A DNA stretch of 64,000 nucleotides from NCBI GenBank assembly GCA_003058495.1, contig QBVC01000018.1, positions 124,001-188,000 of the forward strand. The letters run 5' to 3'. A program made the position numbers and the translations under genes. Within the stretch, counting starts at the first letter, position 1; each line of letters begins with the position of its first letter. The notes under the pieces are model-generated. The model did no database searches. It saw only the letters and a list, made by a program, of their open reading frames with translations, and was not told the DNA's origin. This document shows, one piece after another, positions 889 to 30,917 of this stretch. The stretch comes from a gamma proteobacterium symbiont of Ctena orbiculata. GTDB lineage: Bacteria; Pseudomonadota; Gammaproteobacteria; Chromatiales; Chromatiaceae.

Positions 889-3702
889 CTAACCCTTAAT
901 TTGAGAGATCTCACTCAAAAGCTTCTTCGCCTCATCAGATTCGGGAAACTCCGGGTGTCCATCAATAATAGACACCAACACCTTCTCCGCATCCTTCTCC
1001 CTACCCGATTCTGCAAGCATAACAGCATAATGGTAAAGAATGGACGGATCCGTGGCACTCTCCAACACCGGGTTCAAGAGCTTCAGCGCGGTCGCCGTGT
1101 CACCCGATCTATGGGTCAGCCAGGCAAAGGTGTCCACCACCGCAGCGGAGCTGTTGCCGGTGAGGTCGTAGGCCTGTTTCGCCTGCTCCAGCGCCTTTTG
1201 CGGTGCCTGAGAGAAATTCAGCAGTGCTGAATTGTTAAGTGCCACTATATTACGCGGATTGGCTTCGAGCAGATCGCTGTAGAGCTTGAGCGCTGCCCTC
1301 ACCTTTCCCGCGGACTGATAGACGATCGCCAGCGCCAACTGCGCCTGCGGGTCCTCATTGTGGGCTTTTTTCCATTTCGTCAACAGTTTAATCGCACTGT
1401 TAGGATCCTGGTTCTTAATATACAGATCGGACAACTGCTGCACGATGACAAAAGGCGCTTGCGTGGTGGCATGGGCTTCCAGGCCCTTAATCGCCTTCTC
1501 ACGATCGCCCAGGGTTTCATGGTAGTTTGCCTGCAGCGTGATTCCCACAAACTTGGTCCTGTCGTCAGCGAGCAGCTGATCGATGATCCCCACCGCCTGT
1601 TGATGATTCGCCGCTCCCATCTCCAGCTTGTAACGCAACAATTTACCCTTGATGGATGTGGGGACCTCCCTGTCCAGCCTTTGCAGGGTTTCCCGAGCAG
1701 CATTCAAATCACCCCGCTCGGCCTGGAGATCTGCCAGCTGCAGATAGGCCGTCTCATTCCGCGGATTATCCTCCACCAGCTTTCTGATCGTCGATTCCGC
1801 CTCATCGTAGTGGCCCCCCTGCTGATCGAGCATGGCCAGCATCGACCTGATGGCAGGGTTGCTGCTCTTACGCAGCTCAACGTCGTCGAGGTAGACGGCC
1901 GCCCTTTCAGGCTCCTTTCTTCGCAGATAGTACCTGGCGAGTATGACCCTCGGGAGCCAGGGATTGTGCCCGGATTCGACCGCCTTCTCCAGCCATGCCA
2001 GCGCCTCCTTCTGCTTGCCGGATCGTTCGCTTATCTGCGCCAGCAGCATCATTGCATTGACGTTCTGCGGCTCCCTCGCCAGGACCAGATTGAGCCTGTC
2101 GCTGCCTGCAATCAACCTGCCGTCCTCGAGATCCATTCTCGCCAGCGCCAATTGACCGGGAATGAATTCCGGATCCTTATTGACGGCGTCGCTCAGGTAG
2201 CGTCTAGCGCTGTTGCGGTTTCCCGAGTTGAGTTCTATCAGGGCGCGCAGATGGAGATCCTCGGTACGCCCGCCATCTCTTTGCAACAGCTGGTCAGAAA
2301 GCTTGCGCGCCGAAACGAAATCCTGCTTTTTTATATAGGAGAGGATCAGCAGGGTGTCTCTCTTGCTGGACTGGCCGACCCATTTGTCCTCCAATTCGGT
2401 TATCGCATCATCGACCGCTCCGTGATTGATATAGAGTTTTGCCAGCTCCTCGCGGATTCGGGTATCGCTGGGATTGGTTTCGGCAGCCTTCTTGAGAAAG
2501 TCTATTCCCCTGGAATATTCACCCGATTGGCTGGCCGCCAAGCCGATCATGGTCATGATCTGCTCATCACTGCTGTTGACGTCGCCCGACTCCAACAGCG
2601 CCAGGGCCTCCCTGGGCTTGTCCAATCTCAGCTTGACCTCGCCAAGAAGCTTTCTTGCCACGAGATGGGTAGGCACCTGATTGACATACCTGGTCAACAG
2701 GATATTTGCCTGCTCAAGGTTGTTTTCAGCAAAATGCAAGGCGCCAAGCAGGAGGATTGTCGGCAGATGGTTCGGCAGTACCGCATGGGTTTGCGACAAC
2801 TTGTTGACCGCTGTCTCGTAATTCTGATTCAGATAGTTGTAGAGACCCGACAGATAGGCGACGTAGGGATTGCCTTCATAGCTGGACTCTAGATCGTTGA
2901 TGTATACCTCGCTCTCATCCAGCCTCTCCAGATGGAACAAGAGATGGATGAGGTTGACTTTGATGAGGTAGGCATCTTTCTCCGGATCCCCGGGGCCTAT
3001 CTTCGAAAGCGCGTTCGTCAGCAGTTCAACGGCCTTGCCGTGATCCTCCATCTTTGCGTGCATGGTGCCCAGATCACGCCAGGTCTTATAGTCGCCATTA
3101 TCGATCCCCAATGCCTGCTGCAGATACTCCACCGCCTCCGCGTCATCGTTCTTGATACTTGCCGCTTTGGCCAATGTCCGCAACGCGGTGACGCTGTTGC
3201 TCTCCTGTTGCAGCAACTTCCCGGCAAGCTCTACCCCGTTCTCGATCTTCTTCTCGAGCAGATAGGAGTAGGAGACCACGCCCAACACCCTTGCAGGATC
3301 CACCTCATTGAACCCCCCCTCTTCGTAGGTCTCTACAATCGCCTGGTGTTTACCCTGCAACTCCCAGGAGGTCATCAGGATGGATTGCACGTCGGCAGCG
3401 GGCTGCTGAACGCCTGACACCTTTGAAATCTCCTTTTCAGCGGAAGCGCCATCCCCCTTCTTTAGATAACATCTGGCCAGCAGCTTTCTGGCTTCGATAT
3501 TCTTCGAGTTGATCTGCAGTATCTGCTTGAGTTCGATAATCGCTTTCGAATAGTTGCTGTTGTCGTAACTCGCCTGGGCCGCGGCGAGGGCTTGCTGATC
3601 ATTAGGATCAACGCTGCAAGCCGCCACTATCAGCTGCAGCGCGAGAACACATAGCAAAGCCCAAACGTTATTTGAGTTCGGATTTCTGACCGCCTTTGTC
3701 AT
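889..3702 (-). CDS. prsT: PEP-CTERM system TPR-repeat lipoprotein PrsT
   Basis: 937 residues, close to the roughly 900 expected for PrsT (TIGR02917). The N-terminus is a lipoprotein signal with lipobox IVAAC near residue 29. The rest is almost all tetratricopeptide repeats, visible as recurring ALA-x-G-x-Y or A-x-x-x-L-x-x-A patterns from about residue 40 to the end. The role is unknown; in other genomes it sits with prsK and prsR and is thought to act in assembly of the polysaccharide/PEP-CTERM envelope system. The ATG at 3702 has only a weak GGTGGT-type ribosome site. It begins 58 bp after the prsR stop and is followed 40 bp later by the export lipoprotein gene, so it is a middle gene of the operon. 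Confidence 0.92.
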   Translation of the reverse strand: MTKAVRNPNSNNVWALLCVLALQLIVAACSVDPNDQQALAAAQASYDNSNYSKAIIELKQILQINSKNIEARKLLARCYLKKGDGASAEKEISKVSGVQQPAADVQSILMTSWELQGKHQAIVETYEEGGFNEVDPARVLGVVSYSYLLEKKIENGVELAGKLLQQESNSVTALRTLAKAASIKNDDAEAVEYLQQALGIDNGDYKTWRDLGTMHAKMEDHGKAVELLTNALSKIGPGDPEKDAYLIKVNLIHLLFHLERLDESEVYINDLESSYEGNPYVAYLSGLYNYLNQNYETAVNKLSQTHAVLPNHLPTILLLGALHFAENNLEQANILLTRYVNQVPTHLVARKLLGEVKLRLDKPREALALLESGDVNSSDEQIMTMIGLAASQSGEYSRGIDFLKKAAETNPSDTRIREELAKLYINHGAVDDAITELEDKWVGQSSKRDTLLILSYIKKQDFVSARKLSDQLLQRDGGRTEDLHLRALIELNSGNRNSARRYLSDAVNKDPEFIPGQLALARMDLEDGRLIAGSDRLNLVLAREPQNVNAMMLLAQISERSGKQKEALAWLEKAVESGHNPWLPRVILARYYLRRKEPERAAVYLDDVELRKSSNPAIRSMLAMLDQQGGHYDEAESTIRKLVEDNPRNETAYLQLADLQAERGDLNAARETLQRLDREVPTSIKGKLLRYKLEMGAANHQQAVGIIDQLLADDRTKFVGITLQANYHETLGDREKAIKGLEAHATTQAPFVIVQQLSDLYIKNQDPNSAIKLLTKWKKAHNEDPQAQLALAIVYQSAGKVRAALKLYSDLLEANPRNIVALNNSALLNFSQAPQKALEQAKQAYDLTGNSSAAVVDTFAWLTHRSGDTATALKLLNPVLESATDPSILYHYAVMLAESGREKDAEKVLVSIIDGHPEFPESDEAKKLLSEISQIKG

Positions 3703-3760: not shown

Positions 3761-5122
3761 TTACTTCAGACCGTATTTGTTGACCAGATCATACAAGGTC
3801 GGCCTGCTGACGCCCAACAGATCCGCGGCCTTGGATACATTGCCGCCTACGAAGCTCATCGCCCTGATGATCGCAGTCGCCTCCGCCTGCTCCCTGACCA
3901 CCCTCAGATTGACCGGCATGATATCCTCGCTGCCCTCGGTCAATTGAAGCTCGCCGGGTGTAATCAGCTGGTCATCGGCCATGACCACAGAGCGTTTTAT
4001 CCTGTTTTCGAGCTCCCTGACATTGCCTGGCCAGGCATAGCCTTCGATGGCCTTTAATGCCTCCTTGGTGAATCCATTGACCTTGGATGCATTCTGTTTG
4101 GCATACTTTTTCAGGAATGACCAGGCCAACAGGACCGCGTCTCCGGCCCGTTCTCTGAGGGGCGGGATGTTGATCGTGATTTCGCTGATTCGATAGTAGA
4201 GATCTTCGCGAAATTCGCCCTGCGCAATCTTCTCTTCCAAATCCTGATTGGTGGCGCAGACAACCCTCACGTCGACCGGTATCTCATCCCTGCCGCCTAT
4301 TCTTTCGATCACACGCTCCTGGAGAAAACGCAGCATTTTTGCTTGCAGTCCGAGCGGCATGTCGCCGATTTCATCGAGAAACAGGGTTCCCCCGGTGGCC
4401 GTCTCGATCTTCCCGACTGTCCTTTTTGCGGCGCCGGTAAATGCGCCTTTCTCATAGCCGTAGAGTTCGCTTTCCAGGAGATTTTCCGGAATCGACGCGC
4501 AGTTTATGGCGACGAATTTCCCGTTCTTTCTGTCACTCAAACCGTGGATCGCGCGGGCCAGCACCTCCTTCCCCGTTCCGCTCTCGCCAAGCAGCAGGGC
4601 GGTTATGTCCGTCGGGCTTACCTTCTCGATAATCCGGCAAATCTCCAGCATTTGCGGACTGTTCGCGATTACACCGTCCAGCGGCGAGTTGCGTTGAATG
4701 TTATATAGCCTGCGGTTCTCCTCTTCCAGCGCGTGGACATGGAACGCACGGTCGATAATGATGCGCAATACATCTGGATCAATTGGCTTTTGATAGTAGT
4801 CGTAGGCACCCAGATCTATCGATTTCAGGGCATTCTCGCGGTCGTCGTTACCCGTCACCACGATAACCTTCGTTTGCGGTATCAGGCTTAGAATCTCCTG
4901 GAGCGCGGCAAATCCCTCGCTGACATTGGTCGGATCGGGCGGCAGGCCTAGATCGAGGGTCACCACCGGCGCGGATGTCTTTCTGAGACAGTTGATGGCG
5001 CTCTTTCTGTCACCCATGATATGCACGTCGTAACCATCAAAGCTCCACTTGAGCTGACTTTGAAGCCCCGGGTCATCCTCGACAATTATCAGTGATTTCA
5101 ACTGATTACTAGCTTTACTCAC
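3761..5122 (-). CDS. prsR: PEP-CTERM system sigma-54-dependent response regulator PrsR
   Basis: 453 residues. An N-terminal receiver domain (residues 8-125) has the acidic pair EDD and the phospho-acceptor Asp57 in VTLDLGLPP. A central AAA+ sigma-54 activation domain has Walker A GESGTGKE at 179-186 and an intact GAFTGA loop at 226-231, the loop that contacts sigma-54. The C-terminus is a Fis-type helix-turn-helix (KAADLLGVSRPTLYDL). It is the cognate partner of PrsK. It starts at GTG, and the GTGA sequence is shared with the prsK stop, so translation is coupled. The intact GAFTGA loop predicts that target promoters carry -24/-12 elements; candidates are found at 27497, 28189 and 29426. Confidence 0.95.
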   Translation of the reverse strand: MSKASNQLKSLIIVEDDPGLQSQLKWSFDGYDVHIMGDRKSAINCLRKTSAPVVTLDLGLPPDPTNVSEGFAALQEILSLIPQTKVIVVTGNDDRENALKSIDLGAYDYYQKPIDPDVLRIIIDRAFHVHALEEENRRLYNIQRNSPLDGVIANSPQMLEICRIIEKVSPTDITALLLGESGTGKEVLARAIHGLSDRKNGKFVAINCASIPENLLESELYGYEKGAFTGAAKRTVGKIETATGGTLFLDEIGDMPLGLQAKMLRFLQERVIERIGGRDEIPVDVRVVCATNQDLEEKIAQGEFREDLYYRISEITINIPPLRERAGDAVLLAWSFLKKYAKQNASKVNGFTKEALKAIEGYAWPGNVRELENRIKRSVVMADDQLITPGELQLTEGSEDIMPVNLRVVREQAEATAIIRAMSFVGGNVSKAADLLGVSRPTLYDLVNKYGLK

Positions 5123-7230
5123 AACTCTGCCTCTGCTGTGTCCGATCTCTGATTATCTGCGGCTTGCCGCGCCACCTCAAGCGGGATGGTGATCTCGAAT
5201 TTCGTCCCGACATCCTTAACGCTCTCCACCTTCATGCCTCCCTTCAGGGAATTCACATACTCCCTTGTCTCGTAGACGCCAATCCCCATGCCTGCATTTC
5301 CTTTCGTCGTTTGAAACGGAAGAAACAACTTCTCCTTTATGAACAGCTCGTCCATTCCGACCCCGTCGTCTTCGATCGTTATCACCGCATTGTTGTCCTG
5401 TCGGTCCACGATGACTTCGACTTTTCCATCCTGTGTCGTCGCTTCCTGGGCGTTTTTTATCATATGCACCATGATGGCGGTGAAGCGATCCTTGTCGGCG
5501 ATGGTCTTCAGATAATTGGCGTTGATAGTAAGTTGCGGCTTGGGTGAATAGGCATAGAGTTGATTGACCGCCTGGGCAACCGACTCCTCCACATAGAATT
5601 GTTTTGCCTTGGTGGATTCGAATCGTCCTTGTCGCAGCTGGTTGAGTAATCGTCCCATTTTATTCACCGCATTGCCAATGGTGTTGACTGCGTCGTCCAT
5701 GAATGCAGGATTGTTCTTGTGCCGTTCGGCATTCTTTACCACCAATTCCAACTGGGCTATCAGATTTTTCAGGTCATGCACGACAAAAGCCGAGAGCCTG
5801 TTGAAGGTTTCAAACTGGTTGGCCTGACTCAATGCCTCCGAGGTCTGCAGCAGCGCCAGGTAACTCCCTGCCTGCTTCGCCGATGCCTTGACCAGATCCC
5901 TGTCCTCCCAATTGATCGACTTGGACAGCTTTGGCCGGGTCAGCAACACGAAACCAAGAAGCTGTTCGTGGTGTTTAATCGGAACGACCAGCCAGGAGCC
6001 CTCCACTGCGATCAGCTCCGGGTCGAGTTTCAGCGCATCGTAACGTTCCGGAAACCTTCTGTATTCGTCGATATCGATAATCCAGTCACTCTTGAAAAAA
6101 TAGGTCACCAATGCGTTATCTGCATCGAATGAGATATTTATTGGAGATGCCTGCCAATGACTGACACATTGGTAACTGCCGACATGACCCATCATCCATA
6201 AATAGCCCCCTCCCGCATCGACCGAATCGGCGATCGCCTGCACCACCCGGGTGCGGACCTCTTTGCCTCCTCGACCGTCGGAGAGGGTCTGCACCACACG
6301 CAGCCACTCATCCCGCCAGTCGTACTTGTAGCTGAAGAAGTGTTTGTTGACAAAGACTTTTATCTTAGATCGCAGACTTCCCGAAAACAATACAGTAATG
6401 AGAAAGATGATCCCTGCGAAGACAAAGGCGATCTGGGTCGCCTTCCCCCAGCTGCCGCCGTAGTAGCGAATGTAATAGCCAACCGCCGCCATTGTCACCA
6501 GATAGACACCGGCTGCGATGATGGTAGTGGCGTGAAACACCACCTGCTTGGAGACGAAGACACGCACTGACCAGCTTGGATTTCTGGTCGCTGCAATGGC
6601 TACGAAGGGCACGGCCAGTGAGCTGGTAAGGCCTCTTGCCTGCCAGAGCGTGGTATCCACCCTGTTGAACATCAATGCCTCGGCATAGAGGAAAAAGTCA
6701 TATACGAACAGGATTCCCATCCCGAGATAGAGATACTTGACCGCCCAGCGTACCTCCGGCCTTGTACTGCGGTAGAGCTGCTCGATCAGGGTCAGGCCGG
6801 TAATGGCAAATCCGAGATATCCCACCAGTGGCAGATTGATATCAGCGCCCCAGGATCGCAACGTCTGATTGGCCTGCAGCAGCGGCTCGAACGCTATCAA
6901 CAGGGCTGAACCTATGAGGATGGCGAAGGGGATGTAGACAAGATTCCGCTGTTGCTGACCACTCGCCTTATCCAGGTTGTACAACAACCGAAACAGAAAA
7001 CCGAACCATGCGATGTTTCTTGCGATTTCAAACAGTTGATAGACGGTAACGGTAAGGGCGGAGTCATCGAGCTGATAGGCGACAGCGGCCATCGCCCAGC
7101 AGGCGGTGGTGAATGAGGCGACCAGCAGATAGATCCCCTCTATCCGCCCGCGCCAACTAGTCAGAAGCATTACACTGAAGAGCAGGAAGAGAGAGGCCGA
7201 GATGGCGTAACCGATTATTCCGATACTCAA
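5119..7230 (-). CDS. prsK: PEP-CTERM system sensor histidine kinase PrsK
   Basis: 703 residues. About eight hydrophobic segments in residues 1-285 form the membrane sensor part. A GAF-like region follows (about 300-465), then a dimerisation/phospho-acceptor helix with His485 in FVVHDLKNL, and an HATPase domain with N box (KNAQEA) and G boxes (DDGVGM, GMGIGV). The start is TTG at 7230 with GAGGG 8 bases before it; no better ATG is nearby. It is the first gene of the minus-strand prs operon and overlaps prsR by 4 bp. It is divergent from gspG with a 319-bp gap. The input signal is unknown for the family. Confidence 0.93.
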   Translation of the reverse strand: MSIGIIGYAISASLFLLFSVMLLTSWRGRIEGIYLLVASFTTACWAMAAVAYQLDDSALTVTVYQLFEIARNIAWFGFLFRLLYNLDKASGQQQRNLVYIPFAILIGSALLIAFEPLLQANQTLRSWGADINLPLVGYLGFAITGLTLIEQLYRSTRPEVRWAVKYLYLGMGILFVYDFFLYAEALMFNRVDTTLWQARGLTSSLAVPFVAIAATRNPSWSVRVFVSKQVVFHATTIIAAGVYLVTMAAVGYYIRYYGGSWGKATQIAFVFAGIIFLITVLFSGSLRSKIKVFVNKHFFSYKYDWRDEWLRVVQTLSDGRGGKEVRTRVVQAIADSVDAGGGYLWMMGHVGSYQCVSHWQASPINISFDADNALVTYFFKSDWIIDIDEYRRFPERYDALKLDPELIAVEGSWLVVPIKHHEQLLGFVLLTRPKLSKSINWEDRDLVKASAKQAGSYLALLQTSEALSQANQFETFNRLSAFVVHDLKNLIAQLELVVKNAERHKNNPAFMDDAVNTIGNAVNKMGRLLNQLRQGRFESTKAKQFYVEESVAQAVNQLYAYSPKPQLTINANYLKTIADKDRFTAIMVHMIKNAQEATTQDGKVEVIVDRQDNNAVITIEDDGVGMDELFIKEKLFLPFQTTKGNAGMGIGVYETREYVNSLKGGMKVESVKDVGTKFEITIPLEVARQAADNQRSDTAEAEL

Positions 7231-9691: not shown

Positions 9692-9697
9692 CCGCTG

Positions 9698-10690: not shown

Positions 10691-11919
10691 TGGCCGATCG
10701 CCTGATCATTCAGTGCCACGACAGCGACTGCAGCCGGGTCAGTTGGCTGCTCAAGGGCGGCGCCAGCCCGCAACCGACCGAGGGCACCCTGGCGGATGCG
10801 GCGAAGTTGGCGAAGGGCAGGCGCAGCCTGTTGATCATTCCCGCCACCGATCTGCTCATCACCGAGGTACATATCCCGACCCGTAACCGCCAGCGCCTGA
10901 TCCAGGCGATTCCCTACTCCCTCGAAAATGAGTTGACCGAGGATGTGGACAGACTCCACTTTGCTGCCGGCAATATCGACAGCGAAAATGTGACACCGGT
11001 CATCGTCATCGCCAGGCAGAAGCTCGATGACCTGCTGCAGACCCTCGAATCGGCCGGGATAGAACCCATCGGCATCTATGCCGATCTGCTCTGTCTGCCC
11101 CGTGAGAGTGACGCCTGGAGCCTCTACGAGGATAATCGGGTCCTCAATGTCCGCAGCGACGGGGAGCGGGGATTCAGCGTCGACGCCATCAACGGAGAGG
11201 CGACACTCAAGCTTGCGCTGCAACAGAACAGTGAGCATCCGCCACGCAGGATTGTGCTCTATCAATCCCCCGATACCACAGAGCCACTGGATCTGCAGCA
11301 GTTCGAAGGCGAGTACGATGTCAGCGCACGACGTCTCGGCTCGCTCGCCGAACTGACCGGCATACTCGCCGACAACCTGGTGGAGAAACAGCAGATCAAC
11401 ATTCTCCAGGGCGATTACCAGCGGGTCGACAAGCTGACCCTGCAATGGAAGCGCTGGCTTCCCGCCGCCGTGCTCGCCGCGGTGTTCATCGCCCTGTCCC
11501 TGCTGCTCAGTGTGCTGGAGTATCGCCACTATGAGGCGCAGAGCATCGCCCTCGGCAAACAGATAAGGGAGACCTTCCAGCAGGCCTTCCCCGAGGTAAA
11601 GCGGATTGTCGACCCCAAGGTACAGATGGAGCAGAAACTGAAGGCCCTTCGTGGCGGCGATGCGGGTAGCTTCATGCAGTTCGCCAGCCTCTTCGTCCCT
11701 ACCGCAGCGGTGATCAAGGGCAGCCCGAATACCACTTTGGAAAGTATCAGCTTCCGCGACGGCAAGCTCGATCTGCGTTTGGTCGTCAAGGAGTTGCAGG
11801 CGTTGGAGACATTGAAACAGACCATCGAAGCAAAGCGGCTGGCGGTTGATATCCGTTCCGCCGACGCCACCGGCGATCAGGTCTCTTCGCATATTCGGAT
11901 CAGCGGAGTGAATCCATGA
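10690..11919 (+). CDS. gspL: Type II secretion inner-membrane protein GspL
   Basis: 409 residues. The N-terminal cytoplasmic actin-like domain (residues 1-245) binds the ATPase GspE; RQRLIQAIPYSLENELTEDVDRLHFA is the usual GspL landmark. One membrane helix (about 258-278, LPAAVLAAVFIALSLLLSVL) leads to a periplasmic ferredoxin-like domain. It recruits GspE to the membrane platform with GspM and GspF. The start overlaps gspK by 1 bp and the end overlaps gspM by 4 bp (ATGA). Confidence 0.92.
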   Translation: MADRLIIQCHDSDCSRVSWLLKGGASPQPTEGTLADAAKLAKGRRSLLIIPATDLLITEVHIPTRNRQRLIQAIPYSLENELTEDVDRLHFAAGNIDSENVTPVIVIARQKLDDLLQTLESAGIEPIGIYADLLCLPRESDAWSLYEDNRVLNVRSDGERGFSVDAINGEATLKLALQQNSEHPPRRIVLYQSPDTTEPLDLQQFEGEYDVSARRLGSLAELTGILADNLVEKQQINILQGDYQRVDKLTLQWKRWLPAAVLAAVFIALSLLLSVLEYRHYEAQSIALGKQIRETFQQAFPEVKRIVDPKVQMEQKLKALRGGDAGSFMQFASLFVPTAAVIKGSPNTTLESISFRDGKLDLRLVVKELQALETLKQTIEAKRLAVDIRSADATGDQVSSHIRISGVNP

Positions 11920-12407
11920 AGGAGTGGTGGCAGTCAAAGACCCCCCAGGAGCACATGGCGATGATTATCGGCGCCGTGGCTGTGCTGCTGCTGCTCGTCT
12001 ATCTGCTGATGTGGCGTCCGTTCACCCAGGCACTGGAGAAGAAGGCGCTGCTGGTCGAGAGCCAGCAGATCACCCTGAATTGGATGCAGGACAATCTCGA
12101 CCTTGTTCGAAGCCTGCGCAGTCAACAGCGAGGCAAGGGCGCCGGCAGCAACGAGGCGCTGCTCACCCTGGTCGACAGAACGGCGAAGCGAATTCAGCTG
12201 CGACAGCAGATCCAGCGCATCAAGCCCCAGGGAGACAATGCCGTTCAGCTGTGGATCGAAGAGGCGCCATTCGACACCATCATGAAGTGGCTGGGACAGC
12301 TGACCCTGACCCATGCCATCGAGATCGACTCCCTGACCATCGACCGACAAGAGAAGCAGGGGCTGGTCAATGCCAGACTGGTGCTGCAGCGGGAAGGGGG
12401 CAGCTGA
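11916..12407 (+). CDS. gspM: Type II secretion inner-membrane protein GspM
   Basis: 163 residues. A short cytoplasmic N-terminus, one membrane helix (about 15-33, MAMIIGAVAVLLLLVYLLM) and a periplasmic domain starting with W-RPF, which is typical of GspM. It partners GspL in the inner-membrane platform. It starts in an ATGA overlap with gspL, and its TGA shares one base with the gspN ATG. Confidence 0.9.
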   Translation: MKEWWQSKTPQEHMAMIIGAVAVLLLLVYLLMWRPFTQALEKKALLVESQQITLNWMQDNLDLVRSLRSQQRGKGAGSNEALLTLVDRTAKRIQLRQQIQRIKPQGDNAVQLWIEEAPFDTIMKWLGQLTLTHAIEIDSLTIDRQEKQGLVNARLVLQREGGS

Positions 12408-13162
12408 TGCGCTGGTGGAGCTATCTGCTGATCGGCATCGGGGGCTACCTGATATTTCTGCTCTCGGAGATGCCGGCCCAACACGTTCTGGGCTGGGCCC
12501 TGGCCGACAAGGGCAGGCTTCCGTTCAACTATGCAACCATGAAGGGGAGTCTGTGGCGAGGCAAAATGGAGGCCATCAACTACCAGGGGACACCCATCGA
12601 TAAACTGAAATGGCGCTTCACCCCCAGCTCGCTGTTGCTCGGCAGAGTCGGTTTCAGGCTAAGGCTTCACTACCTGGATCATCGGCTGTACGGACATCTG
12701 GCACGCAGTTTCGGCGGTGAAATCAGGCTGCAGGATATCACGGGACAACTCCCGGCATCGCTGATCGCCGATCTGGCGAATCTTGGCCAGATAGCTGTCG
12801 CGGGCGATGTGGATCTCGATATGAGCCACCTCGCCATCGAGGCTGAACGCATCGCCTCGGCAGAAGGCGAGATCAGATGGCTCAACCCGGCCCTGGTGCG
12901 CCCCTTCAGCGTCAAAGAGGGCAACCTCAAGGCCGAGGTGACAACGGACGATAAGGGTACTATCAAGGTAAGGATCAATGACCTGGACGGGACGACCTCG
13001 GTGGATGGTGAACTGAATCTCACAACCGAGGGAAACTATGACCTCAACGGCGCCATCAAACCTGGCGCGGGATCAGATCCAGGTTTGAGCAGCGCCCTGA
13101 AGGCGGTCGCGAAGAGCCAGCCTGACGGCAGTTACCGAATCAAGTTCAGCGGTCGGCTCTAG
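12407..13162 (+). CDS. gspN: Type II secretion protein GspN
   Basis: 251 residues starting at the ATG that overlaps the gspM stop by one base. One N-terminal membrane helix (LIGIGGYLIFLLSEMPAQ) is followed by a periplasmic beta-rich domain with G-LWRGK, the landmark of GspN. GspN is present only in some type II systems and its role is not settled. It closes the first translationally coupled block; a 208-bp gap with a palindrome follows before gspD. Confidence 0.88.
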   Translation: MRWWSYLLIGIGGYLIFLLSEMPAQHVLGWALADKGRLPFNYATMKGSLWRGKMEAINYQGTPIDKLKWRFTPSSLLLGRVGFRLRLHYLDHRLYGHLARSFGGEIRLQDITGQLPASLIADLANLGQIAVAGDVDLDMSHLAIEAERIASAEGEIRWLNPALVRPFSVKEGNLKAEVTTDDKGTIKVRINDLDGTTSVDGELNLTTEGNYDLNGAIKPGAGSDPGLSSALKAVAKSQPDGSYRIKFSGRL

Positions 13163-13174
13163 GTGTTTTCTGTG

Positions 13175-13198
13175 ATCGGGAGCAACTATCGGGAGCAA
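13175..13198 (+). repeat. Tandem 11-bp direct repeat downstream of gspN
   Basis: ATCGGGAGCAA occurs at 13175-13185 and again at 13188-13198, a period of 13 bp, about one helical turn. It lies just after the gspN stop and ahead of the palindrome at 13233. It could be a regulator binding site or a small slippage duplication. Confidence 0.6.
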
Positions 13199-13232
13199 TT
13201 CGGGGCTGTATGCCTCGGCCCTATCATCTGCT

Positions 13233-13254
13233 AATATATAATGCATTATATATT
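13233..13254. promoter_or_regulatory. 22-bp perfect palindrome upstream of gspD
   Basis: A perfect 22-bp palindrome made only of A/T except the central GC (half-site AATATATAATG). It is the only A+T-rich island in the 208-bp gap between gspN and gspD. The position, 117 bp before the chosen gspD start, suits an operator or a promoter for the gspD-E-F block; it contains TATAAT on both strands. No -35 box is obvious. Confidence 0.5.
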
Positions 13255-13370
13255 CAACATAAACCCATGATGAATAAAGATTTTCACCGACAACAAACGA
13301 GCCTCCCCAAAATCGTCCGCCGACGGACGCCAGGTAACGGGTGCAAGGCTTCAAGGGAACCGGTCAAACA

Positions 13371-15380
13371 ATGAGTATTTTGGCAACCCTTTTCATGGAT
13401 AGACAGCACCCGCACAGCGGTCCGATCAGGCGTCTGGTCATCATGCTGTACACCGTCCTCCTGCTTAACCTCTCGTGGGTCCCGCTTGGCCATGCAGAAC
13501 AGATCACCCTGAATCTGAACAATGCCGATATCGAGGCCCTGATCAAGACGGTATCCGAACACACCGGCAAGAACTTTGTCATCGACCCGAGAGTGAAGGG
13601 AAAGGTGACCGTGATCTCCGCCCACCCGATGGAGCGTGATGAGTTCTACCAGGTCTTCCTCTCCATCCTCGAGGTACACGGCTTCTCCACCATCCCCAGC
13701 GGCGACGTGATCAAGGTGGTCCCGGATGTGAAGGCCAAACAGGGTGGAATCCCCACCGTCAGCGCCCTCGGACAACTGCCCGGCGATCAGATCGTCACCC
13801 GCATCATTCAGGTGAAGAATGTCACTTCTGCGCAGCTGGTGCCGATCCTGCGGCCGCTGATCCCCCAGGAGGGCCATCTCGCCGCCTACCCCGACACCAA
13901 CGTCCTGATCATCTCGGACCGCCGACAGAATGTCGACCGCCTGATGAAGATCATCGAGCAGATCGACCGGGTGAGCGACAGCTCCATCGAGGTCATCACC
14001 CTGCAGCACGCATCCGCCGCCGAGGTGGTGCGCATCCTCAACAGCCTGCAGACGCCGGCAGCCGCCAAAGGGGGCAAGAAGAACGCCACCAAGCTGGTCG
14101 CCGACGAGCGCACCAACAGCATCCTGATCAGCGGCGATCCCACCGCAAGATTGCGTTCCCGGGTGATCATCGAGCATCTCGATACCCCCTTCGACAATGA
14201 AGGCAACGCCCAGGTCATCTATCTCAAGTATGCCAATGCCACCGACCTGGTGCAGGTATTGACCGGGGTCAGCGAGAATCTGGACGAGACCAAGCAGGCG
14301 GGTGGAGCCAAGGCCAAGGGCAAGCCCAAGCTGCCGATCAACATTCAGGCCGACGAGGCCTCCAACGCCCTGATCATCACCGCCCCGCCGGATCAGTTCA
14401 GGGCCCTGCAGGCGATCATCCGCAAGCTGGACATCCGCCGCGCCCAGGTCCTGGTGGAGGCGATCATCGCGGAGGTCTCCTACGACAAGGCGAAACAGCT
14501 CGGCGTGCAGTGGATCGTCGACGGCAGTCCGGATGACAAGGGCCCGATAGGCGTCATCAACCTGGGTTCGCCCTCGATATCCGATATCGCGAGTTCGGTG
14601 GTTGCCGAGACCGGCGTTCCCCTCGGCCCGGGCACCTCCCTCGCCTTTGGACGGTTCAACAGTGACCGGATCAATTTCGCCGCGGTGATCCAGGCCCTGG
14701 AGAGCGACTCCACCTCCAATATCCTCTCCACCCCCACCATCACCACCCTGGACAACCAGGAGGCGGAGATAGTGATCGGTCAGAATGTGCCCTTCATCAC
14801 CGGTTCCTACAGCTCGACCGGCGGCGTCAGCAACTCGGTGAATCCCTTCCAGACCGTGCAGCGCGAGGACGTGGGACTGACCCTCAAGGTCAAGCCGCAG
14901 ATCAACGAGGGCAACTCGATTCAACTGGAGATCGAACAGGAGATCTCCAGCATCAACGCCTCCGCCAGCTCCGGAACCAGCGATATCGTCACCAACAAGC
15001 GCACCATCAAGACCGTGGTCATGGTGGATGACGGCAATACCATCGTTCTCGGCGGGTTGCTCGAGGAGGACCTGCAACAGACCGAAGAGAAGGTCCCGTT
15101 GCTGGGCGACATCCCCCTGCTTGGCGCGCTGTTCCGCGCCAACAGGACCACCAAGATAAAACGCAACCTGATGGTCTTTCTGCGGCCCGTGGTGATCCGG
15201 GATGACGCTGTCAATACGCAGATCGCCAGTGAAAAGTACAACTATTTTCGCGCTCAACAGATGAGGATGAAACAGGAGGGTGTCAATCTGATGTCCGATG
15301 AGGAGTTGCCGGTACTGCCGCCGCGCTTCGGCACCCTCGCCCCCCCATTCGATGATGAAGAGCTGGAACCCGAAAACTGA
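13371..15380 (+). CDS. gspD: Type II secretion secretin GspD
   Basis: 669 residues from ATG 13371, which has AAGGGAA upstream; a GTG at 13341 would add 10 residues. The hydrophobic signal ([21 protein letters not shown]) is followed by the N0 domain ([20 protein letters not shown]), the N1-N3 domains, and the secretin barrel region with [23 protein letters not shown] and [15 protein letters not shown]. It forms the outer-membrane gate. The end carries a charged tail with no obvious S-domain, so a separate pilotin may not be used in the usual way. gspE follows after 17 bp. Confidence 0.96.
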
Positions 15381-15397
15381 TCCCAGGGGATAGGCGC

Positions 15398-16954
15398 ATG
15401 TCGGAGAACTCATCACCCTCTTCCCAGATGGTCGACGATCTCAACGCGGAATCCTCCCTCATCGAGGAGACCACGACCTCCCATGATCAACTCCCCTACG
15501 CCTTCGCCCGCCGCCACGGCGTGGTGATGATCCTGGACGAGGAGCAGAACCAGCTCTGCCTGCTGCACAAGCCCGGGGTGTCCCTGGGCGTGCTCAACGA
15601 GGTGCGGCGCCTGGTCTGCCAACCCCTGATCTATACCCAGGTGGATGAGGAGACCCTGGAGAAGGAGCTCTCCCAGGTCTACGAATCGGGTTCCAAGCAG
15701 TCGACCCAGATCATGGAGACCATGGGCGACGATATCGACCTCGACAATGCGGCGCGGGCATTGAACCAGCCGGAAGACCTGCTGGAGAGCGACGACGACG
15801 CCCCGATCATCAGGCTGATCAACGCCCTGTTTACCGAGGCGATCAAGGAGCAGGCCTCCGACATCCATATCGAACCCTATGAAAACCGCCTGGTGGTGCG
15901 ATTCCGCGTCGACGGCGTACTGCGGGAAGTCCTCACCCCGCCGCGTACCGTCGCCCCCTTTCTGGTCTCGCGCATCAAGGTCATGGCCCACCTGGATATT
16001 GCCGAGAAGCGCATCCCTCAGGATGGCCGCATCTCCCTCAAGGTGGGTAACCGTCCGGTGGATGTACGCGTCTCCACCCTACCCTCCAGCTATGGCGAAC
16101 GGGTGGTGCTGCGCCTCCTCGACAAACAGGCGGGAAGGCTCGACCTGGAGCAGCTCGGCATGTCCAGGGAGCTGCTGCTGCAGGTCGATCCGGGCATCAT
16201 CAAACGCCCCCACGGCATCTTCCTGGTGACCGGACCCACCGGTTCCGGTAAGACCACCACCCTCTATGCGGCCCTGAGTCGGCTCAACACCCAGAGCCGC
16301 AACATCGTTACCGTGGAGGACCCCATCGAGTACTACCTCGACGGCATCGGTCAGACCCAGGTCAACAACAAGGTCGACCTCACCTTCGCCCGGGGCCTGC
16401 GGGCCATACTACGGCAGGACCCTGATGTGGTGATGGTGGGCGAGATCCGCGATCTCGAAACCGCCCAGATCGCGGTACAGGCGAGTCTCACCGGTCATCT
16501 GGTGATGTCGAGCCTGCATACCAACACCGCCATCGGCAGTATTACCCGCCTTCGCGACATGGGGGTGGAACCCTTCCTCCTCTCCTCGAGCCTGATCGGC
16601 GTCCTCGCCCAGCGCCTGGTACGCACCCTCTGCCCCCACTGCAAGACCCCCTACAGCGCCAGCGAAGAGGAGCGGGAGATGCTGGAGCTCACATCCGGCG
16701 ACGAGGTGACGCTCTACACCCCTGCCGGCTGTGAGAAGTGCCACAATCATGGTTACCTCGGAAGAACGGGTATCTATGAACTGATCACCATCGATGAGAC
16801 CCTGCGCAATCTGATCCACAAGGGCAGCGGTGAAATCGAGATGCTGGAACACGCGAGAACGCTGAGCGACAGCATCCGCCAGGACGGCATGAAGCGGGTA
16901 CTCGATGGCGACACCACGATTGACGAGATCATTCGTGTCACCCAGGAGGGTTGA
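15398..16954 (+). CDS. gspE: Type II secretion ATPase GspE
   Basis: 518 residues. The N1E region leads to the catalytic core with Walker [11 protein letters not shown] near residue 278, the Asp box EDPIEY, Walker B ([12 protein letters not shown]) and the His box [11 protein letters not shown]. The four-cysteine zinc motif CPHC...CEKC (about residues 412-448) is intact. It powers pseudopilus assembly from the cytoplasm through GspL. ATG at 15398 has AGGGGATAGG before it; the gap to gspF is 6 bp. Confidence 0.97.
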
Positions 16955-16960
16955 CCAGCC

Positions 16961-18172
16961 TTGGACGCCTTTGAGTATGTAGCACTCGATCCCAGCGGGA
17001 AAGAGCGGCGCGGCGTGTTGGAGGGCGACAGTCCCAGGCAGGTGCGACAGCAGCTGCGGGAGTCGGGCCTCACCCCACTCACCATCGATGTCGCCAGCGG
17101 CGCCACCCAGGAGCGCAAGAGCACCCTCTTCCAGCGCCATATCAATGCCATGGAGTTGGCCTTGATCACCCGCCAGATGGCGACCCTGCTGCGCTCCGGC
17201 CTGCCCCTGGAGCATGTCCTCAAGACCACGGCCTCGCAGACCGACAAACGCCACGTGGAGCGCACCCTGCTGGCGGTGCGGGCAAAGGTGCTGGAGGGAC
17301 GCAGCCTGGCGGACGGGTTGAGCGAATTTCCCAAGACCTTTCCCGAACTCTATATCAAGACGGTCTCTTCCGGTGAGCAGTCGGGCCACCTCGAGGTGGT
17401 GCTGGAGCGTCTCGCCGACTATACGGAACAGCGCCAGCAGATGCGCCAGAAGACCATCTTCGCCCTCTTCTACCCGGCGCTGCTGACCGTGGTCTCGCTG
17501 CTTATCGTCGGTGGTCTGCTGACCTATATCGTGCCCCAGGTCACCCGGGTGTTTGAAACCATGCAGGCCGACCTGCCCTGGATCACCCAGGCCCTGATGA
17601 CCACCAGCGACGTCTTTCGCGCCTACGGCGTGCCGATCTTCCTGCTGCTGCTCCTGAGCGGACTGTTGCTGAGCTATCTGCTGCGCAAACCCGGCCCCAA
17701 ACGCTGGTGGCACCGCACCCTGCTGCGCATCCCGCTGGTGGGACGCCTGGTTCGCACCTCCAATGCCGCCCGCTTCTCCAGGACTTTGAGTATAATGGCC
17801 GCCAGCAGCGTACCGATCCTCGATTCGATGCGCATCGCCTCCCAGGTGTTGACCAACCTGCCGATGCGCAACGCCGTGGAGGAGGCGACCCTGCGGGTGC
17901 GCGAAGGCACCAGCCTCTACCGCGCCCTGGAGAAGACAGGTTACTTCCCGCCCATGACCCTCAGTCTGCTTGCGAGCGGTGAATCGAGCGGCAACCTGGA
18001 GGGCATGCTGGAACGCTCGGCGGACATTCAGGAGCGGGAGATCGAGACCCTGGTGACCACGATCCAGGGATTGTTCGAACCGATACTGATACTGGTGATG
18101 GGTGGTATTGTACTGGTAATCGTACTCGCCATACTGCTGCCGATTTTCGACCTTAACCAACTGGTAGGCTGA
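16961..18172 (+). CDS. gspF: Type II secretion platform protein GspF
   Basis: 403 residues. Two T2SSF domains, each with the LLRSGLPLEHVL or SVPILDSMRIA type motif, and three membrane helices (about 169-191, 222-240, 370-398). It is the polytopic core of the inner-membrane platform. The initiation codon appears to be TTG at 16961, 11 bases after a full AGGAGG; the first residues (DAFEYVALDPSGKERRGVLE) match the family start exactly, so the non-ATG start is credible. Confidence 0.96.
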   Translation: MDAFEYVALDPSGKERRGVLEGDSPRQVRQQLRESGLTPLTIDVASGATQERKSTLFQRHINAMELALITRQMATLLRSGLPLEHVLKTTASQTDKRHVERTLLAVRAKVLEGRSLADGLSEFPKTFPELYIKTVSSGEQSGHLEVVLERLADYTEQRQQMRQKTIFALFYPALLTVVSLLIVGGLLTYIVPQVTRVFETMQADLPWITQALMTTSDVFRAYGVPIFLLLLLSGLLLSYLLRKPGPKRWWHRTLLRIPLVGRLVRTSNAARFSRTLSIMAASSVPILDSMRIASQVLTNLPMRNAVEEATLRVREGTSLYRALEKTGYFPPMTLSLLASGESSGNLEGMLERSADIQEREIETLVTTIQGLFEPILILVMGGIVLVIVLAILLPIFDLNQLVG

Positions 18173-27455: not shown

Positions 27456-27496
27456 AATACTATTCTCCCCGACGATTAACGCTGTACGAAGTGAAT

Positions 27497-27512
27497 AGCA
27501 ATAACCAAACCA
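27497..27512 (-). promoter_or_regulatory. Sigma-54-type -24/-12 promoter for the Tat/PEP-CTERM gene
   Basis: The minus strand reads TGGTTTG, 4 bases, TTGCT, against the consensus TGGCACG-N4-TTGCW; GG and GC are separated by exactly 10 bp. The -12 part is perfect. The predicted start gives a leader of about 30 bases. Confidence 0.55.
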
Positions 27513-28188
27513 AGTAATATTATTTTTGTATTTTCAACTAGTTACATTTTTTGTCCCCAACCGAATGCCAATAACTGTAAATTATACTGACACTGCAATA
27601 TCCAATCGGCGAAGGATCGAACCGGATCTGTCGCCTAGCACGGGCTGCTCTCCCCACTGGTTGCCAAATTCATTGGGGGGATCAATATGGGCCTGCACGG
27701 GCAGCCCCGTAGGGTGCCGAGGATAGTATTTCAGCGAACTAGATTGGGTATTACTACCCATAGAATAGATTCTTCAGGTTTCGTAGCTTATCAAATAGAG
27801 TGGCGAATCCGTTGTGCTTCAACGACCCTAGCCGGTCTGTTTGGACAGATTTCACAGAGGAAATCTCGCGGTTTGATTGTGTTTTCCCCGTTAGGGATCA
27901 CTCATTCCACGATTTTCACAACTGATCTGATTGAAATTTAAGCCTTTATTGAAAGGCCATGCAGGAGAATATGCCAACGGTATTCATACTGCCTACCAGC
28001 AATCAAGGCTTGGAAATGAGTCTATGTGTGTCGATACAAACTCTAGTTGCACAGGGAAGTGCATTCTTCTTTTCCGGGATAGGAAAATTGTCTGGACTTT
28101 CTGGCATATAGAGAACGAAATTCATATGGCGTCGGAATAACTTACAAATCCTATGATGGTGTTTTTTAACTCATTGATCCCAAAAGCA

Positions 28189-28204
28189 AGGCATAGTTTA
28201 TGCT
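28189..28204 (+). promoter_or_regulatory. Sigma-54-type -24/-12 promoter for the PEP-CTERM gene at 28273
   Basis: AGGCATA, GTTT, ATGCT against TGGCACG-N4-TTGCW, with GG and GC exactly 10 bp apart. It is about 70 bp before the ATG, leaving a leader of about 58 bases. Confidence 0.5.
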
Positions 28205-28272
28205 TGGAATCCCAGAATATCGATTCCCTGTCCGGGTGGGATTTAAAGGCATATGAAAGATCAGTGGCTGTG

Positions 28273-28896
28273 ATGAAGAAATTATCAGTATTGTTCCTAG
28301 TCGGCCTGATGGGGTTTTCCGCCGCCGCCAATGCGGCACTCATGGGTTATACCTTCACCGGCCAGGTAACCAGCATCAACGACGGGGCGGGCGCTGCATC
28401 GATAGCGGGCGTCACGAACGGAGATACGATCACCTATCGATTCTCCGTCGACAGGGATCTGCCTGGCACGCTCACGCAAAACAACGGTTCCACGCAGCTC
28501 TTCACCGACACAGGCACAACGGACTATTTCTTCGATGACTTGTTGTCCGGCAGTGTAATCGACGAGGTAAACGGCGGGTATTTCAACGCACCCACCGATA
28601 CCGCGGAATATAACCGTGGCTTCAGAAACACCAATAGCGGCTACACCCAGCTGCGCGGCGGTTCCGCCGACAACTTCATCCAGATAACCAGCAGCCTGGA
28701 TATCGATCTGTGGAGCGTTGGCCTCTACGTCTCCGGAATGGAAGTCGCATCGAATGCCATTGGTAATCAAACCCTGGTTATCTCCAACCTCCGCCTGTCC
28801 AACATTGTTCCTGTTCCCATCCCGGCCGCGGCCTGGCTCTTTGTTTCCGGTCTTCTAGGTCTATTTGGATTCAACCGCCGAAAGAGTAAGACATGA
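28273..28896 (+). CDS. PEP-CTERM surface protein (VPIPAAAWLF type), G+C-rich paralogue
   Basis: 207 residues from ATG 28273, which gives a clean Sec signal (KKLSVLFLVGLMGFSAAANA). An earlier in-frame ATG would bury the signal. The mature domain begins GYTFTGQVTSINDGAGA and is close to the protein at 29507 (shared LLSGSVIDEVNGG). The C-terminus is the sorting signal VPIPAAAWLFVSGLLGLFGF then NRRKSK, recognised by exosortase. The ribosome site is weak. The gene is G+C-rich, unlike its A+T-rich paralogue. Function of the mature domain is unknown. Confidence 0.88.
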   Translation: MKKLSVLFLVGLMGFSAAANAALMGYTFTGQVTSINDGAGAASIAGVTNGDTITYRFSVDRDLPGTLTQNNGSTQLFTDTGTTDYFFDDLLSGSVIDEVNGGYFNAPTDTAEYNRGFRNTNSGYTQLRGGSADNFIQITSSLDIDLWSVGLYVSGMEVASNAIGNQTLVISNLRLSNIVPVPIPAAAWLFVSGLLGLFGFNRRKSKT

Positions 28897-29506
28897 GAAA
28901 GGAGCATGAGTTAGCTGATCCTCATCTTGCCCATCATCTTCGTTTTCTCCTGACACTCAATCCAATCTAGCGCCTGGTGGACAGCCGAGTCTACTGTCCA
29001 TCAATCACAAATCGGCTGCTGAATACGCCACCGCGTTCGGTGCCCGAAACCCTATCAGCCACTGCAGCGAAAACCAGTACCGGAAGCCACGTGACTACAG
29101 TGGGAAAAGAACCGACGGCCGGTGATCGATGTCTGTTTTGCCATCATGATAGATGTTCATTCACCGTTGGTTATCCAGACTCACGCTCGATTGAAATCAT
29201 ATTTTATAAAGAATGAGCGTTATCGAAGCGCCAAACCAACAGGGCAAGTGAAATCTGCTTGTTTATTTTTTTATTATAGGGGGCTTACATCCCTGTCTAT
29301 CATCCCCGGGTGCAAAAAAAATCCATAAGCAAATCTTTGATCTTGTCCGGAACGCAATTCGTAAATCGTCGAAATTACTTACATGTCATATATTGGAAAC
29401 ATATAACTCACTGATTTAAAAAGGGAGGCATGATTTTTGCCTTATCAACAGGGATTGGATTTGCACCCTGCGGTGTAAGAAAAAACAAAAGGGTTAGGAG
29501 CAGGTT
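28897..29506. other. Intergenic region upstream of the second PEP-CTERM gene
   Basis: 610 bp. The left part is G+C-balanced and the right part from about 29200 becomes A+T-rich, a visible composition change. It contains the sigma-54-like element at 29426-29441. Short frames here have no supporting features. Confidence 0.5.
29426..29441 (+). promoter_or_regulatory. Sigma-54-type -24/-12 promoter for the PEP-CTERM gene at 29507
   Basis: AGGCATG, ATTT, TTGCC against TGGCACG-N4-TTGCW; GG and GC are 10 bp apart and TTGC is perfect. It is the best of the three elements on the plus strand and shares AGGCAT with the one at 28189. The leader would be about 55 bases. Confidence 0.6.
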
Positions 29507-30121
29507 ATGAAGAAGTTATTAGGATTCTTTCTTGTTGCATTCGTGGGTATTTCCACAACTGCATTTGCAGCACCATTCACATACACGTTCACAGGTACTA
29601 TCACATCCATTGATGACGATGCTGGCGCAGCTAATACCGCAGGTATTGCTCTAGGAGATTCTGTCTCATATACATTCTTAATAGACAGGGCTCGTGAAGG
29701 TAGAGAAACACGAAATGCAGGATCTTATAATTTACTTGCTGACAATGGAGCTTACGATACATTCTTTGCTGACTTGTTATCTGGAAGTGTTATTGATGAG
29801 GTAAACGGTGGTTTCTATAACAATCCCGGTGATATTGCAGAATATAATTCTGGCAGCGAAAGACTAAATGATGGTTACCACACATTCTTTGGTGGTTCAG
29901 ATAACAATACTATAAATCTTGAATTCTTTAACTTGGGTGTTGGTTCTTCTGCTATGGTTACAGAATATGCTTTCAATAATGCAGGCCTATTCACTACTGT
30001 TATATCAAATGATCTCTCATTGACTGGTGTTTCTCCAGTCCCCGTACCAGCAGCCGTATGGCTATTCGGATCTGGCCTACTAGGTTTGATCGGCCTTAAC
30101 TACCGAAAGAACAAAGCATAA
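29507..30121 (+). CDS. PEP-CTERM surface protein, A+T-rich paralogue
   Basis: 204 residues with a Sec signal (KKLLGFFLVAFVGISTTAFA), a mature domain homologous to that at 28273 along its whole length, and the sorting signal VPVPAAVWLFGSGLLGLIGL followed by NYRKNK. A strong AGGAGCAGG ribosome site precedes the ATG. Codon use is strongly A/T-ending. A terminator follows 4 bp after the stop. Expected to be a surface or matrix protein handled by exosortase XrtA. Confidence 0.9.
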   Translation: MKKLLGFFLVAFVGISTTAFAAPFTYTFTGTITSIDDDAGAANTAGIALGDSVSYTFLIDRAREGRETRNAGSYNLLADNGAYDTFFADLLSGSVIDEVNGGFYNNPGDIAEYNSGSERLNDGYHTFFGGSDNNTINLEFFNLGVGSSAMVTEYAFNNAGLFTTVISNDLSLTGVSPVPVPAAVWLFGSGLLGLIGLNYRKNKA

Positions 30122-30344: not shown

Positions 30345-30917
30345 ATGAAGAAATTAATTGGATTCATATCAGCACAATTTCTGATACTTTCTGCATATGC
30401 ACCTCTATCTCAAGCAGCAACGATTACATACTTTCAAAATCTAAATATAGGTGGAAGCCTGTATAACGCAACAATCCATACTTCCGGTTCATTTAATACT
30501 ATATGGGATAATAATGGGAACGGAGTATTTGGAGATAGTGATGGCAGCATAATTAATCATAGTCCTACATTTTGGCAAAGTTCAAATGCGAGTCTTGCTG
30601 CACAAGCTGTAATAGATGCACTAGGTACATCTGATACATACGATGGACTACATGATAGAATTGCGGTTCCATATGATACAACCGCATCAAATACTCTTGT
30701 GTATATTGATCGTTTTAATGGTTTAACTAACGATGAGTTGTGGGGACCAACAGGCCTACTTCCCAGTGATGATTACACAATATTATTTCCAAGCAATCCA
30801 ATTGCATATGTTTCTTTTGAAAATGCATCACCAGTCCCCATTCCAGCAGCGGTCTGGCTCTTTGGTACGGGTGTTATAGGATTATTGGGTTTTAACTTCC
30901 GCAATACCAAAAAGTAA
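30345..30917 (+). CDS. PEP-CTERM surface protein, third type
   Basis: 190 residues. Sec signal (KKLIGFISAQFLILSAYAPLSQA), a Ser/Thr/Asn-rich mature region unrelated to the two preceding PEP-CTERM proteins, and the sorting signal VPIPAAVWLFGTGVIGLLGF with NFRNTKK at the end. GGGAGAG precedes the ATG. It is A+T-rich like its neighbour. Unlike the other three PEP-CTERM genes, no GG-N10-GC element was found upstream. A short AAAGAG/CTCTTT hairpin after the stop may be a weak terminator. Confidence 0.88.
   Translation: MKKLIGFISAQFLILSAYAPLSQAATITYFQNLNIGGSLYNATIHTSGSFNTIWDNNGNGVFGDSDGSIINHSPTFWQSSNASLAAQAVIDALGTSDTYDGLHDRIAVPYDTTASNTLVYIDRFNGLTNDELWGPTGLLPSDDYTILFPSNPIAYVSFENASPVPIPAAVWLFGTGVIGLLGFNFRNTKK

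Follow-up and report, generated by a model that had tools for sequence, protein, structure and literature searches.

Whole-turn spacing between predicted PrsR boxes and sigma-54 elements upstream of PEP-CTERM genes, with a probable phased bend in many spacers

A 64,000-nucleotide stretch of contig QBVC01000018.1 (positions 124,001 to 188,000 of the forward strand; hereafter the window), from a gamma proteobacterium symbiont of Ctena orbiculata, carries PEP-CTERM-type genes with start codons at 27455 (minus strand), 28273 and 29507, and also encodes the histidine kinase PrsK and the sigma-54 activator PrsR. Are these three genes expressed from sigma-54 promoters under PrsR, and what in the DNA would make them so? 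The first-pass annotation had pointed to three -24/-12 elements, all keeping GG-N10-GC and two keeping TTGC, 30-75 bp ahead of PEP-CTERM genes. Direct reading of the window sequence agrees with it: GG-N10-GC is present in all three, two end in TTGC and the 28189 element in ATGC, and the distance from GC to start codon is 42 (27455), 69 (28273) or 66 bp (29507). We conclude from the sequence that the three genes very probably have enhancer-dependent sigma-54 promoters under the window's own PrsK-PrsR, phased by whole helical turns and with a spacer that is probably often bent by integration host factor (IHF).

The more telling half of these promoters was absent from the first-pass annotation. 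A 17-bp box, YGTCRR-N5-YTTACA, lies upstream of all three elements, 43 or 64 bp before the GG (we call the distance from box to GG the spacer). Haft et al. 2006 (PMC1569441) described this box as their motif 1, the predicted PrsR site. The TTTACA ending given there is found, with CTTACA at both plus-strand boxes, and motif 2 stands within the published limits (spacer 32-92, 23-221 nt to the start), at spacers of 43, 43 and 64 and 42-69 bp from the start. To score box and promoter together we trained a position-weight model on 58 class- and phylum-level pairs outside the window's family, treating all spacers from 28 to 110 alike. On both strands of the window it found exactly three pairs, all at PEP-CTERM-type genes, with scores of 33.8, 32.7 and 28.6, whereas none in 60 random Markov windows, each scanned on one strand, scored higher than 22.7. 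Comparison with a genome of the same genus shows both the box and the weak -24/-12 element of the minus-strand gene to be conserved and the intervening spacer to have diverged; same-genus relatives of the 28273 gene likewise carry pairs at spacer 43.

It is the upstream box that lifts the three elements above chance. The sigma-54 element by itself was rejected as evidence, as neither window nor genome counts showed enrichment. GGCATN5WTGC with at most one mismatch has 50 sites in the window where shuffles lead one to expect 41.9 (the only exact matches are the two plus-strand elements), and TGGCAYN5TTGC with at most two mismatches has 104 against 116. In the 4.5-Mb genome we found 56 sites of WGGCATN5WTGC, four of which, by coordinates, lie just before recognised PEP-CTERM genes. 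The first-pass annotation had named equal frequency before unrelated genes as grounds for giving up its proposal; the -24/-12 element alone would fall to that test because it is common elsewhere in the genome.

We used a wider set of promoters to ask how general the pairing is. Upstream stretches of 274 PEP-CTERM genes from 98 genomes were taken from among the matches listed (9 own, 89 order-level as 29+60, 109 class-level as 29+80, 67 phylum-level as 27+40), leaving out very short or long frames, those near contig ends and near-duplicates of stretches already chosen. The weight model, whose training included phylum-level pairs, found a pair in 192 of the 274, compared with 5 on the reverse strand. 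The 274 stretches hold 188 distinct promoters (spacers up to 112), as some stretches overlap. A third sample of 78 stretches before proteins with VPxPA-type ends, found with the 28273 protein and from genomes that may overlap the earlier ones, gave 12 pairs and 1 on the reverse strand. Pairs also go with PrsR. We searched 80 of the 98 genomes (all 16 without a pair and 64 of the 82 with one, same-genus and some same-family genomes being dropped) and found PrsR above cut-off in 62/64 genomes with a pair and 7/16 without (Fisher p = 2e-6).

The spacers are not spread evenly. A strict pattern that allowed spacers of 20-150 gave 98 pairs in 93 of the 207 own, order- and class-level stretches, and these fell only at 42-45, 53-54, 61-67, 72-77, 84-88 and 95-98, plus five above 105. 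The expected centres were fixed from these 207 stretches before the phylum-level sample (27 previously unused genomes) was drawn. Its 67 stretches gave 20 strict pairs, one at spacer 133; all 19 with spacers of 28-110 lay within 2.5 bp of a centre where 49% would be expected in phase, a result weaker on periodicity than it suggests, since 15 of the 19 sit in the main 62-65 peak. In the third sample 10/10 pairs outside the genus were in phase, over four classes (n=10), and among non-strict pairs found by the weight model (spacers 28-110) 76/81 were.

Collapsing similar promoters left 158, in turn classes of 5, 17, 80, 34, 7, 11 and 4 promoters with means of 43.0, 53.1, 63.9, 74.7, 86.1, 96.9 and 106.8 bp. 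No spacer in this set fell at 46-50, 56-60, 68-71, 78-83 or 89-92 bp. The helical repeat fitted by regression was 10.84 bp (95% 10.57-11.08), slightly above the 10.5 bp of relaxed DNA, a shift in the direction that negative supercoiling in vivo would give. The phase statistic R(10.5) was 0.705, whereas no run of a jitter null (3000 runs, each taking the best of periods 9.5-12) exceeded 0.297, and the periodicity remained at p=5e-15 when the 60-69 peak was removed (n=78). Drawing a single promoter at random from each genome (n=82, 500 draws) never brought R(10.8) below 0.699, and of the 51 genomes holding two or more distinct promoters 32 draw on at least two turn classes, so the signal does not come from one spacing per lineage. 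Among 76 pairs of homologous PEP-CTERM proteins, which are not independent, the spacers differed by 0-2 (52), 8-13 (13), 20-24 (5) or 33-40 bp (6), never by 3-7 bp. Chance as the source of the spacing was rejected by uniform and jitter nulls, main-peak removal and the similarity collapse, and is further countered by the one-per-genome draws, the reverse strand, a backwards decoy and the two later samples. We consider it likely that PrsR boxes seldom lie anywhere but at an integral number of helical turns from the sigma-54 element (some 43 to 107 bp), in many promoters with a phased IHF bend between, and that evolution shifts the enhancer by whole turns. Two loci (L057 and L084) were also seen to carry two copies of the box, 33 and 31 bp apart, or about three turns.

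For the spacers themselves we searched with WATCAANNNNTTR, which we take to be the IHF consensus. Each window promoter has one IHF-like site, with no more than one mismatch to this consensus, between the box and -24. Such sites were found in 108/190 spacers, where dinucleotide shuffles gave 31.4 (sd 3.4); the reversed pattern, used as a decoy, was found in 36 of the 190 against 28.4 in shuffles. In the commoner orientation 52/67 sites lie 20-22, 30-32 or 41-42 bp from the box, and 52/67 lie 9-10 or 19-21 bp from the GG. With similar spacers collapsed and far sites excluded, the phase R was 0.71 and 0.74 for the commoner orientation and 0.41 and 0.44 for the other. Alignments anchored on the GG, with no consensus supplied, brought out TAAC followed by TG between -33 and -24 in the 62-66 class; the 73-77 class shows them at identical positions. 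In the 62-66 class A and T are also favoured at -16 and -10/-9 before the GG, between the IHF-like site and -24, where the alpha subunit of the polymerase may make contact.

These observations suggest the following course of events. PrsK would phosphorylate PrsR, and PrsR~P would bind the 17-bp pseudo-palindrome (TGT/CGT-N11-ACA) and assemble its AAA+ ring there, with the box centre about 77 bp (the two plus-strand genes) or 98 bp (the minus-strand gene) upstream of the expected start. A short DNA loop, often bound and bent by IHF, would then bring the ring to the sigma-54 polymerase at -24/-12. The stiffness length of DNA exceeds such short loops. The box would therefore have to face the polymerase on the right side of the helix for transcription, and natural promoters would keep whole turns (about 43, 53, 64, 75, 86 and 97 bp).

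The components this requires are present. PrsR, which the first-pass annotation had placed at 3761 with an intact GAFTGA loop, is there as described and above its family cut-off; prsT, prsR and prsK adjoin an XrtA-type export gene, and type II secretion genes GspJ, K, L, D, E and F at 8957-18172 (plus strand) adjoin the PEP-CTERM regulatory genes. The genome has a single match to rpoN in the profile search (502.1 bits) and both ihfA and ihfB above cut-off. We recognised 12 PEP-CTERM-type genes in it, nine as profile matches (one below cut-off) and three by eye (28273 and 30345 of the window and one near C1:31022). Eight of the 12 have an in-phase pair, at spacers of 43, 43, 43, 44, 45, 64, 65 and 65 and spread over contigs C1, C10, C23, C49 and C51; three have no pair. 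The PrsK-PrsR-sigma-54 regulon over the chromosome that the first-pass annotation suggested is thus well supported by the three window pairs, these eight genes, rpoN and the co-occurrence with PrsR. The idea itself is already known, from the proposal of Haft et al. 2006 and the RpoN dependence of one gene in Xia et al. 2023.

Four further pairs in the genome precede places without a PEP-CTERM gene. They come from the flanks of motif matches rather than from a whole-genome scan, so more may exist. A strong box with TGGCACAATCAATGC stands before a HisKA_3 histidine kinase gene at spacer 78 (L018, G000:C2:149065, minus strand), possibly a downstream regulator or a false site. The strong in-phase pair L026 (G000:C3:134170, minus strand; spacer 65, score 34.0) has no convincing gene after it, and a small protein or RNA is a possible target. 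In-phase pairs also stand before a 104-amino-acid protein (L023, G000:C2:95295, spacer 44) and a protein of 68-93 amino acids, depending on the start codon (L312, G000:C14:90821, spacer 64), both without a Pfam match; these are candidate regulon members outside the PEP-CTERM family.

Several observations weigh against PrsR-dependent promoters of this geometry. No pair was found in 82/274 stretches and 16/98 genomes, nor in 66/78 of the VPxPA-type stretches, and seven genomes have PrsR and no pair in the stretches taken. The -24 half of the element at 27512 is poor (TGGTTT). Five of the 81 non-strict pairs are out of phase, as are the histidine kinase pair and the weak pair of one more PEP-CTERM gene of this genome (d=100). 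The period is not sharply set either, with a best Rayleigh period of 11.05 against 10.84 from regression. Other points bear on one or other rival and are weighed with it.

The plainest rival, that GG-N10-GC is common and the three elements are meaningless, draws on the lack of enrichment of the elements alone. We give it next to no credence: three box-promoter pairs were found in the window and none elsewhere there at the thresholds used, all above the null maximum, which refutes chance for the pair. Alternatively, the box could be bound by another NtrC-like activator, with PrsR a mere neighbour. Twelve proteins of the genome match the PrsR profile at E<=1e-100 (among the matches listed only PrsR is above cut-off), and two genomes, G168 and G234, carry pairs with no PrsR above cut-off, which may reflect assembly gaps. 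The co-occurrence of pairs with PrsR argues against this activator swap, as does the same profile reported in 13 proteobacteria in the available part of Haft et al. 2006 (PMC1569441). Moreover, Zoogloea floc formation needs PrsR, and PrsK-PrsR controls a PEP-CTERM gene, as stated in the accessible portion of PMC9012009. We therefore regard a different activator as very improbable.

A more serious question concerns the IHF step. Phasing could arise without IHF, through wrapping of the DNA or direct protein contacts, and the IHF-like signal would then be no more than flexible A+T-rich DNA. The spacers are only 33% G+C, 82/190 have no IHF-like site, the excess extends upstream of the box (37/190 against 11 for the decoy), and the site at 27532-27544, in the promoter whose box is at 27576, is not conserved in the same-genus relative. 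Flexible DNA would not readily account for the set distances of the sites from both box and GG, for their phase, or for the TAAC and TG positions that emerge in the anchored alignments, and neither dinucleotide shuffles nor the reversed pattern reproduced the excess. Phasing without IHF is accordingly unlikely in our judgement, though less so than the two rivals above, and we retain the phased PrsR box with a frequent IHF bend.

Features of the window (positions from its first letter)
Feature	Position	Strand	Details
PrsT TPR protein	889..3702	-	TIGR02917 468 bits, cut-off 312.2
PrsR	3761..5122	-	receiver, sigma-54 AAA+ (GAFTGA) and Fis-type helix-turn-helix; TIGR02915 722.2 bits, cut-off 502.6
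PrsK histidine kinase	5119..7230	-	TIGR02916 756.8 bits, cut-off 300
PEP-CTERM protein, 133 aa	27054..27455	-	TIGR02595 29.7 bits, cut-off 16; Tat-like signal, six KKKV units
sigma-54 -24/-12 element	27496..27512	-	TGGTTTGGTTATTGCTA; core TGGTTTGGTTATTGC at 27512-27498; weakest of three, 6.8 bits
IHF-like site	27532..27544	-	TAACTAGTTGAAA; one mismatch to WATCAANNNNTTR
PrsR-type box (Haft motif 1, predicted site)	27576..27592	-	TGTCAGTATAATTTACA; 64 bp before GG; 21.8 bits
PrsR-type box (predicted site)	28130..28146	+	CGTCGGAATAACTTACA; 43 bp before GG
IHF-like site	28167..28179	+	TAACTCATTGATC; one mismatch; 10 bp before GG
sigma-54 -24/-12 element	28189..28205	+	AGGCATAGTTTATGCTT; core AGGCATAGTTTATGC at 28189-28203
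PEP-CTERM-type protein, PepA-like, 207 aa	28273..28896	+	VPIPAAAWLF...RRK C-terminus
PrsR-type box (predicted site)	29367..29383	+	CGTCGAAATTACTTACA; 43 bp before GG
IHF-like site	29404..29416	+	TAACTCACTGATT; one mismatch; 10 bp before GG
sigma-54 -24/-12 element	29426..29442	+	AGGCATGATTTTTGCCT; core AGGCATGATTTTTGC at 29426-29440
PEP-CTERM-type protein, PepA-like, 204 aa	29507..30121	+	VPVPAAVWLF...YRK C-terminus
fourth PEP-CTERM-type gene	30345..30917	+	VPIPAAVWLFGTG...; identified by eye from C-terminus

The PEP-CTERM-type proteins of the window differ in how firmly the profiles recognise them. In the minus-strand protein the Tat-like signal is a weak match, the KKKV units are consecutive, and the lysine-rich part between signal and sorting domain weakly matches a histone-like family. 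The 28273 protein scores 21.0 with TIGR03370 (the VPLPA variant; cut-off 25.35), and its C-terminus looks right by inspection. Its longer open reading frame, starting at 28153, would place the promoter inside the gene, which makes 28273 the plausible start. The 29507 protein passes the TIGR02595 cut-off only with its frame neighbours included and is below Pfam's cut-off. Against the PepA floc family NF033554 the two PepA-like proteins reach 21.8 and 28.9 bits, below the cut-off of 80. Their genes are related and in tandem (28273-30121), with G+C of 54.6% and 40.2%; the box-to-promoter stretches are identical at 53/76 bases and of equal spacing. Among named relatives the nearest to the 28273 protein (95% identity) belongs to a metagenome-assembled symbiont of a lucinid clam (Ctena orbiculata, NATV01000105.1); a locus of Candidatus Thiodiazotropha also matched, and the window probably derives from a Thiodiazotropha-like symbiont. 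The protein of the fourth gene had no family match in the profile searches and the weight model gave the gene no pair of its own in the window; it may be transcribed by read-through from 29507 or have a different promoter.

Some activated-sludge bacteria need PEP-CTERM proteins to form flocs, and a single type of enhancer appears to be common to many PEP-CTERM genes. In print the box is described only as lying about 63 bp upstream; the whole-turn rule and the frequent IHF-like bend would turn this into a quantitative architecture and sharpen prediction of the regulon, including targets outside the PEP-CTERM family. If true, the rule would tell which boxes are active and predict IHF dependence, and PEP-CTERM promoters across Proteobacteria would amount to a natural phasing experiment that yields the helical repeat from sequence alone. 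Natural sequences of this kind also show how strong a constraint looping from a short-range enhancer may place on the evolution of promoters.

How does this compare with known systems? Haft et al. 2006 (PMC1569441), in the part of the text available, describe a 17-nt motif ending TTTACA, predicted to bind the activator and followed by sigma-54 motif 2 at a mean spacer of 62.8 (SD 10.6, range 32-92), and propose PrsK-PrsR-sigma-54 control of PEP-CTERM genes. Motif 1, motif 2 and PrsK/PrsR/PrsT are the same here, and the targets are PEP-CTERM-type genes; the difference is that the spacer is summarised there by its mean, SD and range alone, and a term search of that text showed no DNA phasing and no IHF. 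In Aquincola tertiaricarbonis the pepA start has been mapped and depends on rpoN1, with a TGGCAC/CTGCTT element (Xia et al. 2023, PMC9850573, accessible part). That gene shares with ours its PEP-CTERM-type product, sigma-54 element and predicted upstream enhancer, but it is a single gene, a term search of the text gave no occurrence of IHF, helical or spacing, and the window proteins fall below the PepA family cut-off. Helical spacing or IHF at PEP-CTERM promoters appeared neither in the available parts of these two papers nor in literature titles and abstract beginnings, a set that mostly excludes subscription papers. As far as the literature found goes, the proposed geometry, whole-turn spacing with an IHF-like site, is new at these promoters.

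Outside the PEP-CTERM field, distances of activator sites to sigma-54 promoters, with their distribution, have been given for Desulfovibrio vulgaris (PMC4641369), for many activators in one genome and, in the accessible text, without the terms helical or IHF. The closest likeness in mechanism is with the IHF-assisted sigma-54 promoters of NifA and Pu (PMC7057263, as far as available), where IHF aids looping from an upstream activator site to -24/-12. Those are individual promoters, whereas here the geometry comes from natural promoters of what is predicted to be one activator in 82 genomes. Finally, helical facing can govern activation by NtrC-type proteins, according to the available part of a review (PMC7408454) whose examples are single systems; the natural spacers studied here occupy seven turn classes.

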